Shown here piece by piece: positions 1 to 3,643 of a DNA stretch of 64,000 nt (positions are counted from its first letter, which is position 1; every line of letters begins with the position of its first letter). The notes beneath the pieces are model-generated. The model was not told the DNA's origin. It saw only the letters and a program-made list of their open reading frames with translations, and ran no database searches. Where the stretch lies: assembly GCF_011758645.1 (NCBI RefSeq), contig NZ_JAAMOZ010000001.1:2666001-2730000 (forward strand), in the 5' to 3' direction. Origin of the DNA: Brooklawnia cerclae. GTDB lineage: Bacteria; Actinomycetota; Actinomycetes; Propionibacteriales; Propionibacteriaceae. A program made the translations under genes and the position numbers.

Positions 1-787
1 TCGCGGGGACGCCGAACTTGTCGGAGAGGAACGCCGCGGCCTGACCTCCCTCGTAGCGGTTGAGCGCGATGGTCCCGATGGCGTTGGCCGTCCCGGCGAT
101 GTCTTCCACCGTCGTCTCGCCGTGCGCGACGTGGTTGCCCGAGGGCATCAGGGGCGCGTCGAAGGTCTCGGTCTCGAACAGCACGGTGGCGTCGATGTCC
201 ATCTCGGCCAGCAGGTGCTTCAAGGCCGTCACATCCCCGGGGTTGACCCATCCGGTGATGAAGTTGATCTTCCCGTTCGGCTCACCCTTCTCGGCGAAAT
301 GGCTGACGAACTCCTTCACCGCGAGGTCGTAGCCGCTGATCATGCTCCCCACGAAGCTGGGCGTGTGGATGGGGATCAGGTGCACCTCGCGACCGGGGAA
401 CTTCTCCTTGAGCAGGCCGTTCTCGAGCTTCGTCACGACCCCGTCGATGTCGTCACCGATCACCTCGGTGGAGCAGGTCGAGATGATGGGCACCACCTTG
501 ACATCGGGGTACCGAGTCAGGAGCACGTCGACCGCCTCCTCGACGCGGTTGAGTGCACCGAACACCGCGCCGTCCTCGTGGAGCGAGGACGAGGCGATCT
601 CGAAGCTCTCCTTGAAATGCTGGGAGAAGAGCAGCCGGACGAACATCACGCAACCCTGACCGCCGTGGACGATCCCGATGCAGTCCTTGATGCCGATGCT
701 CGCGTATTGGGCCCCGCACGGCTGGCAGGTGAAAATGGGGTTGATCGTCCCCGCCCGTTCCTTCTCCTTCAACTGACACGTGTCCAT
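1..787 (-). CDS. anfK: AnfK, iron-only nitrogenase beta subunit (partial, N-terminal ~262 residues)
   Basis: Beta subunit of the FeFe protein, which with AnfD carries the P-cluster and reduces N2 in the cytoplasm. I translated the minus strand from the ATG at 785-787. It opens MDTCQLKEKERAGTINPIFT and contains FTCQPCGAQ, HGGQGCVMFV and IISTCSTEVIGDD. Cys21, Cys46 and Cys105 lie where P-cluster ligands are expected. A later stretch reads HTPSFVGSMISGYD, and the frame stays open to the window edge. A strong ribosome site (GAGGAGGA) lies 6 bases before the start. The opening resembles AnfK more closely than NifK, and the protein lacks the long NifK N-terminus. It is the last of four genes in the order anfH-D-G-K; the C-terminus is outside the window. 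Confidence 0.93.
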   Translation of the reverse strand, partial: MDTCQLKEKERAGTINPIFTCQPCGAQYASIGIKDCIGIVHGGQGCVMFVRLLFSQHFKESFEIASSSLHEDGAVFGALNRVEEAVDVLLTRYPDVKVVPIISTCSTEVIGDDIDGVVTKLENGLLKEKFPGREVHLIPIHTPSFVGSMISGYDLAVKEFVSHFAEKGEPNGKINFITGWVNPGDVTALKHLLAEMDIDATVLFETETFDAPLMPSGNHVAHGETTVEDIAGTANAIGTIALNRYEGGQAAAFLSDKFGVPA

Positions 788-838
788 GCGTGTCCTCCTC
801 ATCTACGTTTCGCGATCCGCATTCCGCGCCGCGAGGGC

Positions 839-1192
839 CTAGTAATGGGTGTCCGTCAGCTCTTCGTTCAAAGACCCCGTGATGGTCAGGTAGTCCAGCT
901 TCTCCCGCAGGGCCTGCATCACCTGCCGGATCTCCTGGGCGCTGAGGTCGTCGAGCCAGCCGAACTTGTTCCGGTAGGCGCGCGAGAGGTCAAGAGCATC
1001 CGCGTAGTAGCACTTGTCCTCCGGCGTGGAGGGCACGATCTCCTCCCCGCACAACAGGTCACAGGTCATGCCGAGGATGTGCTCGTTCTGCCGTTCCCGG
1101 TCCCAGGCACGGGAGTGGAACTGCCACAGGCATTTCTTCATGATGTGGTCCAGCAGCAGTTCCATGTACTCGCTCTGCTTTTCTTCGGTCAT
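839..1192 (-). CDS. anfG: AnfG, iron-only nitrogenase delta subunit
   Basis: Small delta subunit found only in alternative (V or Fe) nitrogenases, where it binds the alpha subunit and is needed for activity. The 117-residue product contains IMKKCLWQFHSRAWDRERQN and the C-terminal signature LTITGSLNEELTDTHY. Both match the AnfG pattern as I recall it. VnfG differs in these places (WQFFSRTWDRE; TITRSTNRELNHHLY), so this identifies the Fe-only type. The protein is slightly shorter at the N-terminus than Azotobacter AnfG. The ribosome site GAGGAGGT lies 8 bases before the ATG and overlaps the end of anfD, which suggests translational coupling. It sits between anfD and anfK, the usual position. 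Confidence 0.95.
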   Translation of the reverse strand: MTEEKQSEYMELLLDHIMKKCLWQFHSRAWDRERQNEHILGMTCDLLCGEEIVPSTPEDKCYYADALDLSRAYRNKFGWLDDLSAQEIRQVMQALREKLDYLTITGSLNEELTDTHY

Positions 1193-1205
1193 CGCGGATA
1201 CCTCC

Positions 1206-2798
1206 TCAGGCGCCGATCTTGAGCGACGCGTCCGCGTCCGCCTCGCCGGTCTCGGTGAGGACGAACTCGGGGTACTCGCGCTCGCGCAGTCTGGCGACCG
1301 AGTCGATGGCGCCCGTGTACTCCCGCAGGTTCGGGTCGTCGCGCACCTCGGCGGGCAGGTTCACGTCCGACAGCATCTGCCGCGTGACGAATCCCTTGTC
1401 TGTGGGGATCTCGTCCTTGCTGATGTCGAGCAGGGACAACTCGTGGATGGGCGAGTAGACCGCGTCGTAGATGTCGCGGGCGAAGCGCACCCAGCCCTCG
1501 TACCCCTTCCAGGGTCCGTTGTGGTAGGCGTGAGCGTTGAGGTAGGGCACCCGGACCTTCTTGGCCACCTCTCCGGGACGCTTCCCGGTGAAGATGCAGT
1601 CGGGCTTGAGTGTCTCCATGGCCTCCATGCCCTCGAGTTCGTTCGGGTCGTCGATGGCCAGCGCACCCACCTCGCAGCGGGAGATGCCTTTCTCCATGTC
1701 ACCCTGGTGACCGAACTTCGTGTACACGGAGACGACCTCGACGCCCATCTCCTCGTGGATCGCGTTGGCCCAGTGCCACAGCTTCGACCCGCCTGGCCAC
1801 AGGCAGACCTTCTTGCCCTGCAGTCGTGCCTTGTACCATTCGAGTTCCGGCTTCCAGCGGGCGGTCTCCTCCGAGATGATGGCCTCTGCACGATCCTCGA
1901 TCCCGAAGAACGTGGCGACCTTTCGCAGGGACGCCGACAGCGGCTCGAACCCGAAGCCGTCGATGTCCAGCCGGGGGATGCCGTACCGCACCCGCAACTC
2001 GTTGCAGATGTACTCCGCCGACCGTGCGCACTCCAGGACGTTCAGCTGGGCCTTGTGCATGCCCCGCAGATCGTCGTAGGAGCCGTTGCCGGTGAAGGTC
2101 GACAGCACCTGGATGCCCATCCTCCTGAAGAAGTCGTTCATGACTTCCTGGTCACCCTGGATGTTGTATTCCCCGACGTAGTTGATGACGTAGTCGCTCT
2201 TGATCTCCGGCTCGACCGTGCCGACCTTCTGGTTGACCCAGGCGATGTTGATCTTGTGGTGACCGCCGGACTGGCTGGGGCCCCCGAAACCAGGCGAGTT
2301 GCAGACGAAGATGTCCACATCGGGCATCTCGTCCATGATCTCGTTCGCCAGGGCCTCGATGTCGTCACCGATCAGGGCGGACGCGCAGGTCTGGTAGATC
2401 GTCATGCGCTTGATGTCGGGGAAGGCCGCGAATGCCTCCTTGATGCTCTTGCGCAACTGCTCCTCGGCGCCGAAGACGACGTGCTGTTCCTTCATGTCGG
2501 TCGCGAAGGTGTACTTCAGCTGGAAGTTGTCGTTGTCGCTGATGTAGCGCTTGGTCTGCCAGGTGTCGTACGTGCATCCGACCGGGCCGTGGCTCAGGTG
2601 GATGACGTCCTTCATCGGGGTGCCGATGACGTGCTTGGCGCCGCAGTAGGCGCAGCCCCGCTCGGACAAGGTGCCGGGGATGGTGTTGAGGTAGCCCAGC
2701 GGGAGCGCGTCGGAGAGATCCTCCCCCTCGCCCTTGATGACTGCGTGCTTCTCCCTCTCAGGGATCGATTCGCTGCACTTGAACAGGTGATACGGCAT
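1206..2798 (-). CDS. anfD: AnfD, iron-only nitrogenase alpha subunit
   Basis: Catalytic alpha subunit that binds the FeFe cofactor. The 530-residue chain has the P-cluster Cys set in [10 protein letters not shown] (Cys49), HGPVGC (Cys75) and YQTCAS (Cys138). It also has the cofactor ligands Cys257 ([12 protein letters not shown]) and His423 ([10 protein letters not shown]). Those two numbers equal the ligand positions I recall for Azotobacter AnfD. Other family stretches are [19 protein letters not shown] and [11 protein letters not shown]. The start at 2798 is chosen because [24 protein letters not shown] openings are typical of AnfD. The same frame stays open well upstream, but that part is antisense-like and overlaps anfH. 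It is 17 bases downstream of anfH. Confidence 0.96.
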
Positions 2799-2815
2799 TG
2801 TCGGTGCCTTTCTTC

Positions 2816-3643
2816 CTAGTCGCCGATGCCGTACTTGACGACCATCTTCTCGAGCTCGTCCATGCTCAGCGGCGATGGGACGACGAAGTCCTCGTTCTCG
2901 ATGATCTTCCGGGCCAGCTCGGCGTACTCGTGTGCCTGGTTCTCCTCGGCGTGGTACTCCACGACGGTCTTCTTGTTGAACTCCGCCTTCTGAACGATGT
3001 TGTCGCGCGGGACGAAGTGGATCATCTTCGTGCCGATCGCGGCGGTGAACTCCTCGATGAACTCCTGCTCCCGGTCGACGCGCCGGCTGTTGCACACGAC
3101 GCCGCCGAGCCGCACGCCGCTCTGCTTGGCGTACTTGAGCAGGCCCTTGCAGATGTTGTTCGCCGCGTAGATGGCCATCATCTCGCCCGAGGCCACGATG
3201 TAGACCTCCTGCGCCTTGCCATCGCGGATCGGCATCGCGAACCCGCCACACACGACGTCGCCCAGGACGTCGAAGAAGACGAAGTCCAGATCGTCGGTGT
3301 AGGCGTTGTTCTTCTCCATCAGGTCGATGGCGGTGATGACGCCACGGCCGGCGCAGCCGACGCCCGGCTCGGGGCCACCGGACTCGACGCACTGGATGCC
3401 GGAGTACCCCTGCTTGATGACCTTCGCGTTGGTGACCTTCTCGGCGCCCTCCTGCCGCAGGACGTCCATGAGGGTCTCCTGCGGCTTTCCGTTCAGGATC
3501 AGGCGGGTCGAGTCCGCCTTCGGGTCGCAACCATGGATGAAGACCTTCTGATCGTAGAAGTGGGTCATCGCCGCAGCGGTGTTCTGCTGGGTCGTGGACT
3601 TTCCGATTCCACCTTTGCCGTAGAAGGCGATCTTTCGGGTCAT
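2816..3643 (-). CDS. anfH: AnfH, nitrogenase iron protein (dinitrogenase reductase)
   Basis: Homodimeric ATP-dependent reductase that delivers electrons to AnfDGK. The 275 residues show the P-loop GKGGIGKST (9-17), the cluster ligands Cys97 (GVGCAGRG) and Cys132 ([11 protein letters not shown]), and Arg100, the residue ADP-ribosylated in some diazotrophs. The opening [12 protein letters not shown] and the C-terminal [15 protein letters not shown] are AnfH-like. The start at 3643 is set by the N-terminal strand and a GGAAGGAA ribosome site; a longer reading would add 44 unrelated residues. It is the first gene of the anf operon. No draT/draG, nifA/anfA-like activator or assembly gene is visible nearby. 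Confidence 0.96.

Follow-up and report, generated by a model that had tools for sequence, protein, structure and literature searches.

The iron-only (Fe-only) nitrogenases of model organisms are encoded by genes standing in the order H-D-G-K (PMC6579470), and a 2021 survey records them from some Proteobacteria, Firmicutes and Methanosarcina, while for one Propionibacterium it reports nif and not anf (PMC8399215). Alternative nitrogenases have been described as occurring only together with the molybdenum (Mo) enzyme (PMC3464626). Here we describe an anfHDGK operon at the start of a 64,000-nucleotide stretch (hereafter the window) of the Brooklawnia cerclae genome, corresponding to positions 2666001-2730000 of contig NZ_JAAMOZ010000001.1 (C1). 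Our analysis indicates that the operon very probably encodes a normal Fe-only nitrogenase, acquired by transfer and serving as a secondary, Mo-independent enzyme beside a Mo nitrogenase. Judged by its sequence, AnfHDGK is a complete Fe-only nitrogenase of the ordinary kind, probably working, in an unusual host lineage. In a search of mostly open literature we found no published report of Anf for Propionibacteriaceae or Actinomycetota, although the survey of Addo and Dos Santos (2020), cited in PMC9310841, may list such genomes. With a complete Anf system beside Nif in an actinobacterium, comparisons of regulation and support genes gain a further host lineage.

The assignment is carried by curated models. 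AnfD (scanned against the NCBIfam equivalog models without its first eight residues) and AnfG exceed the cut-offs for the Fe-only subunits (Table 1), as does full-length AnfK (TIGR02931 anfK, 912.2 bits, cut-off 853.85), whose gene is broken only by the window edge, with its remainder at C1:2665396-2666000, outside the window. AnfD reaches only 351 bits against the NifD model, below the cut-off of 653.55. The genes are closely packed, with gaps of 17, 13 and 36 bases (H-D, D-G and G-K, from the coordinates), and their reading frames are intact. The cofactor ligands Cys257 and His423 are present in AnfD, and AnfG ends in LTITGSLNEELTDTHY; Cys 49, 75 and 138 of AnfD and Cys 26, 51 and 110 of AnfK are presumably the P-cluster ligand sites. 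The operon has its own Fe protein, which shares 60-61% identity with the two NifH paralogues of the same genome and finds its closest solved structures in 7qqa_A (531 bits) and 8oie_D (504 bits), both nitrogenase iron proteins by name. The closest PDB chain to AnfD is 8boq_A (981 bits), from the Fe-only nitrogenase of Azotobacter vinelandii, followed by 8oie_A (915 bits). The latter structure, 8OIE, is the Fe-nitrogenase of R. capsulatus (PMC12552129). A "Group V" signature shared by Vnf and Anf has been described (PMC3464626), and Ala258, which follows the Cys ligand, and His426 of AnfD appear to fit it if the residue numbering of that paper is carried over as we suppose. A previous reading of the window from its letters alone (the sequence-only reading) had proposed an actinobacterial anfHDGK operon with a complete structural gene set, the same two ligands and the same AnfG signature, and had set it apart from the Mo and vanadium enzymes. 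All of these points hold, the NifD, VnfD, VnfK and VnfG models scoring below their cut-offs throughout.

Table 1. Locations of the anf operon and of the other features discussed. Window positions count from C1:2666001; L numbers denote extracted loci.
Feature	Location	Strand	Product or description	Model score (bits)
anfH	window 2816-3643	minus	Fe protein, 275 amino acids	NCBIfam nifH 457.5, cut-off 394.35
anfD	window 1206-2798	minus	alpha subunit, 530 amino acids	TIGR01861 ANFD 1044, cut-off 873.8
anfG	window 839-1192	minus	delta subunit, 117 amino acids	TIGR02929 anfG 155.6, cut-off 124.7
anfK	window 1-802; whole gene C1:2665396-2666802	minus	beta subunit, first 267 of 468 amino acids in window	
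Flavoprotein gene	C1:2664753-2665364	same as anf	PNPOx-type, 203 amino acids, directly after anfK, outside window	
U314	C1:2663786-2664730	same as anf	314 amino acids, no family above cut-off, outside window	
anfO	C1:2663092-2663718	same as anf	AnfO, outside window	PF09582 152.4, cut-off 30.3
Direct repeats	window 4113-4196		three repeats, 18-26 bp matched, 31-bp spacing, 470-553 bp upstream of anfH (repeat search)	
MarR-family and MFS genes	window 4266-6070		regulator gene and divergent transporter gene	
nifDKEN	C1:1899028-1904938		one run, then nifH (whole run to 1905822)	
Second nifB, second nifH, NifX-like gene	C1:2014490-2017314 (L020:10491-13315)	minus	second nifB of 484 amino acids	
MarDK-like pair	C1:1856553-1859497 (L010:8554-11498)	plus	D-like and K-like proteins	
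TGA in nifD	L112:1603		wider stretch L177	
TGA in nifD	L113:1603		wider stretch L178	
TGA in nifD	L114:1603	reverse	wider stretch L179	

The same contig carries a Mo nitrogenase. A PF00148 search found eight component-1 proteins in the genome, namely NifDKEN, AnfDK and a pair closest to methylthio-alkane reductase (MarDK), and the nif genes form a single run with nifB adjoining nifN. NifH (443.1 bits, cut-off 394.35), NifD (665.9, 653.55), NifK (437, 427.3) and NifE (598.7, 505.1) all exceed their curated cut-offs. The sequence-only reading had looked to nifB as a gene whose absence would count against its proposal, and nifB occurs twice in the genome (387.9 and 366.4 bits, in-frame neighbours included; cut-off 343.65). 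Beside the first lie nifJ (1615 bits) and a nifV-like gene, whose position makes homocitrate synthesis by its product likely. By gene content, then, the organism would be a Mo diazotroph with an Fe-only back-up, and Anf beside Nif keeps here to the published pattern of alternative and Mo enzymes occurring together (PMC3464626). NifB-co and homocitrate are thought to give rise to the FeFe-cofactor with no NifEN-type scaffold involved, and AnfO stops the wrong cofactor from being inserted, which was demonstrated for FeV-co and proposed for FeMo-co (PMC9310841); the gene set described here agrees with both points. The second nifB is accompanied by a NifX-like gene and a second nifH, and in its vicinity are a PALP-family gene and a glutathione S-transferase-like gene. 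The product of this second nifH (H2) is 81% identical to the first NifH, and the nifH-nifB pair may serve either the MarDK-like pair or Anf.

Downstream of anfK, and past the window edge, the anf strand continues with genes for a flavoprotein of the pyridoxamine-phosphate-oxidase (PNPOx) type, a protein which we call U314, and AnfO. A scan for AnfD relatives in a collection of species genomes gave 207 stretches, and the locus comparisons that follow rest on the best 80 of them. Of these 80 loci, 68 encode a relative of the flavoprotein on the same strand as anf, at 24-61% identity, and 10 give a match to U314. Ten of the 12 rows of a clade of Clostridia, Planctomycetes and Propionibacteriaceae have U314, the window included; within that clade L037 gives no match, and the contig of L064 stops about 245 bases past anfK, too soon to judge. 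One match lies outside the clade: in L038, about 3.5 kb upstream of anfD, U314 is matched at 41% over 226 residues. An alignment of 11 U314 sequences contains 47 invariant positions and a cysteine-rich tail in most members, which is absent in L033. Among four members scanned with MORN_2 (cut-off 29.6 bits), only that of L032 passes, with 36 bits, the window's member reaching 11.9. The predicted structure of U314 is nearly all strand, with a mean predicted local distance difference test (pLDDT) score of 83.5 that falls below 50 in the tail, and a fold search of the PDB gave nothing at E <= 0.001, the best hit reaching 0.032. The conservation of U314 within the operon suggests an Anf-linked role, and the gene is a tangible candidate for an accessory factor not studied so far.

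In its order H-D-G-K, its Cys257 and His423 ligands, its delta subunit, its AnfO and the presence of a Mo nitrogenase in the genome, the system agrees with the Anf systems of A. vinelandii and R. capsulatus. Unlike them, it has U314 as an extra gene, neither AnfR nor a sigma-54 activator was recognised, and a PNPOx-type flavoprotein that is only distantly like Anf3 follows anfK directly. The anf loci of Clostridia (such as Acetobacterium and Ruminiclostridium) and of a Planctomycetaceae metagenome-assembled genome (MAG; L029) have the same relative order, anfHDGK-PNPOx-U314-AnfO, and are the nearest outside the family in our tree, yet belong to other phyla. This order is repeated in L028, L029, L032, L033, L034, L039 and L059, with space for extra genes between anfK and the PNPOx gene in L033, L034 and L059. 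The window's AnfG is 53-62% identical to those of the nine clade members from Bacillota and Planctomycetota, as against 70% to L028; for AnfO, where found, the corresponding values are 28-44% and 59%. The Azotobacter Anf3 is a terminal oxidase homologous to the PNPOx flavoprotein family (PMC6579470), and by analogy the 203-residue flavoprotein could have an Anf3-like role.

The distribution of anf among related genomes is narrow. Only one of 396 phylum genomes sampled, the window's own, has an AnfD over the curated cut-off (25 give some match), which bears out the earlier remark that Anf is unusual in the phylum. Such an AnfD is found in 3 of 198 family genomes (some match in 14), and AnfG in 3 of 391 order genomes sampled, the same three. 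In the other two family genomes (G532 and G547), the anf loci show 100% identity to L028 (Propionibacteriaceae bacterium UBA5174) over 3390 bases and to L064 (Propionibacteriales bacterium MS_R1_1) over 4533 bases, respectively; L028 and L064 are also the only two loci actinobacterial by title among the best 80 of 207, and, as public MAGs, they mean that anf genes of this family are already in databases. By record title, public genomes with Anf also come from Chlorobi, Planctomycetes, Spirochaetes and Acidobacteria. The window itself belongs to a 3.79-Mb genome of six contigs (98.49% completeness, 0.27% contamination), and a binning artefact or stray metagenome contig is unlikely, since anf sits on a 2.9-Mb contig and contamination is so low.

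A tree of concatenated AnfH, AnfD and AnfK comprised 72 rows: the window, the 70 of the 80 loci with near-complete H, D and K, and L028; nine incomplete loci were dropped. The window, L028 and L064 form one clade (support 100 in the Shimodaira-Hasegawa-like approximate likelihood ratio test, SH-aLRT), which sits within a larger set of 12 rows (98) whose other members are seven Bacillota and two Planctomycetaceae. The window's Anf is nested among the 71 other Anf rows and not outside them, in keeping with the sequence-only reading; this tree holds Anf rows only, and the separation from Vnf and Nif rests on the model scores. Among the best 80 of 207, the highest AnfD identity, 88%, is to a Bacillota MAG (L027), while over H, D and K together the family-mates are nearest. 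AnfH is 92% identical to that of L064 and 93% to that of L028 (130 residues). The tree fits a transfer of anf into Propionibacteriaceae from outside the phylum, although tree and counts do not distinguish a single gain from transfer between family members. The donor would have been a relative of the Clostridia/Planctomycetes branch, and the operon is probably now patchy in the family.

Taken together with work on other organisms, the gene set suggests how the enzyme could function. Hydrolysing ATP, AnfH would supply an AnfD2G2K2 complex with electrons for the reduction of N2, and the FeFe-cofactor on which this takes place would be bound through Cys257 and His423 of AnfD; genes and ligands are in place, and activity is expected from them. 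The cofactor core could come from NifB, either of the nif cluster or of the second nifB, and homocitrate from the nifV-like product, while a NifEN-type scaffold should not be needed, judging from work in Azotobacter. AnfO might exclude the wrong cofactor, here presumably FeMo-co, and the flavoprotein encoded after anfK may have an Anf3-like oxygen-scavenging or redox role. Expression would probably be switched by a regulator other than AnfA or NifA, perhaps, and this is speculative, at the 31-bp-spaced repeats upstream of anfH.

Several observations count against so ordinary a picture. AnfO, a common but not universal companion of Anf, reaches 121.1 bits with its NCBIfam model, 8 under the cut-off of 129.15, and NifN 304.8 bits, 22 under its cut-off of 326.8; the nifV-like protein falls further short, with 284 bits against 462.9. 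The flavoprotein resembles BH0577 (2hti, E 1.1e-48) far more than Anf3 (6rk0, E 2.5e-9). In L064, unlike in the window's genome and L028, an AnfO-like frame (42% over 112 residues; about 7893-8318, minus strand) is situated upstream of anfH and runs in the opposite direction, and gene order is thus not fixed even within Propionibacteriaceae. The tree was built by a quick method, without a mixture model or bootstraps, and L028 entered it as AnfD alone. Finally, AnfR was not recognised among the scanned anf neighbours. The sequence-only reading had seen no anfA, anfO or anfR on the upstream side, and it was right about AnfR to that extent and about an AnfA-type activator, none being recognised in the genome, but not about anfO, which stands three genes beyond anfK, the gene in which the window ends.

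The control of the operon bears on whether it is in use. A search with PF00158, the sigma-54 activator domain, gave three matches in the genome (33.4, 32.7 and 21.6 bits), at a Pfam cut-off of only 20.2 with which all 14 control genomes were also matched. One match is a ClpB over its cut-off, one a Clp-family protein (best ClpB model 983 bits, under 1232), while for the third, of 342 amino acids, NCBIfam gives nothing at E 1e-20. AnfA activators belong to proteobacterial systems and do not define Anf. This search, in which rpoN itself was not sought, recognised no activator of the AnfA/NifA type in the genome, and for this reason regulation probably differs from the proteobacterial model and expression probably depends on another regulator. 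Upstream of anfH lie three direct repeats (Table 1), whose 16-base core occurs twice exactly in the window, compared with 0.06 occurrences expected with up to two mismatches. Genome-wide, the motif gives eight matches at no more than one mismatch, three of which are the repeats and form the sole cluster; a reversed-pattern control gave 23. The repeats are a possible, putative operator array, though this is speculation, and an operator common to anf and nif was considered and rejected, as the motif clusters nowhere else in the genome. A MarR-family regulator gene and a divergent major facilitator superfamily (MFS) transporter gene stand beside anf and are probably unrelated to it. The MFS neighbour did not locate the anf insertion site in other genomes, its best matches in seven other genomes of the genus being 28% identical or weaker pieces.

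Alternatively, the operon could be newly acquired, silent or in decay and lack a functional regulator. Within the genus, AnfD exceeds the cut-off only in the window's own genome among the eight searched, no sigma-54 activator was recognised, the upstream repeats are not seen in L064, and the GC content of the window's first 4 kb is lower (0.63-0.64) than across the remainder (0.65-0.71). However, the intact reading frames run counter to decay, as does the 81-93% identity of H, D and K in another Propionibacteriaceae genus (L028 partial for H and K), and the third-position GC content of anfH, anfG and anfK (0.89-0.92), similar to that of neighbouring genes, speaks for long residence. We regard this alternative as unlikely. 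A more ambitious proposal is that the Clostridia/Planctomycetes/Propionibacteriaceae branch represents a distinct mode of Anf, in which U314, a conserved all-beta, MORN-like protein with a Cys-rich tail, would be a dedicated maturation or cofactor-fidelity partner replacing AnfR, combined with actinobacterial, sigma-54-free control by a regulator binding the 31-bp-spaced repeats. We consider this conceivable but doubtful.

It is very unlikely that the main role of the enzyme is the reduction of CO2, CO or another substrate instead of N2. Fe-only nitrogenase does make formate and methane from CO2 (PMC12093980; PMC7341956), and the genome also carries the MarDK-like pair, but both cofactor ligands and the anfO, nifB and nifV-like support set are present, and nothing in the operon is a sign of a different substrate. 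A vanadium nitrogenase, or a mixed enzyme accepting FeV-co, is still harder to sustain: AnfD and AnfK score strongly against the VnfD and VnfK models (694 and 762.7 bits), yet fall below those cut-offs (823.1 and 873.95) while exceeding the Anf ones, AnfG likewise misses the vnfG cut-off (105.2 against 141.7), and with all eight component-1 proteins assigned there is no VnfEN. That a stand-alone Fe-only nitrogenase is the organism's only one, as the sequence-only reading had ventured for the case that a Mo nitrogenase is lacking, is scarcely credible, for nothing favours it beyond the window itself, where no nif genes are seen, and nifHDKENB lie on the same contig.

The MarDK-like pair is an observation in its own right. 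It lies with a NifX-like gene, a PALP-family gene (which we take to be cysteine-synthase-like) and ABC transporter genes. Its D-like protein reaches 468 bits (9fmg_A/9d9u_A) and its K-like protein 446 bits (9d9u_C), with the next families at 123 and 91. 9FMG is the R. rubrum MarDK2H2 structure, and Arg428-His429 of MarD has been named as a possible hallmark (PMC12552129); in our reading of the alignment, Cys66, Cys91, Cys158, Cys270, Arg428 and His429 of R. rubrum MarD are all identical in the D-like protein. Unlike in R. rubrum, there is no MarH near the pair, none of the five PF00142 matches of the genome lying there, and no marB, the nifB search giving only a 34.7-bit NifX-like stretch. H2 and the second nifB, about 157 kb away, were considered as MarH and MarB and rejected, H2 being of the NifH type (422 bits to 1cp2 as against 268 to 9fmg_D). 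Searching with the D-like protein, we obtained some match in 15 of 197 genomes of the family and in 24 of 396 of the phylum, none of which, the window's own genome apart, exceeds 34% identity over at least 200 residues, and a literature search found no report of methylthio-alkane reductase in Actinobacteria.

In three other Actinomycetota genomes (G094, G060 and G169; family code f26, two genera), nifD carries an in-frame TGA at the codon for Cys62 (A. vinelandii numbering), the first P-cluster Cys, and the frame is otherwise uninterrupted. TGT or TGC stands there in the five further genomes of the phylum sample whose matches fit the motif. For two of the three, RNA folding of a 60-base stretch from the TGA onward gave z values of -1.5 and -2.9. 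A 2013 report described selenocysteine at the NifD Cys62 site in three other species (PMC3760896), and a 2026 review places the NifD family among selenoproteins (PMC13188914); as the site has been reported before, the TGA-containing genomes would extend its host range.

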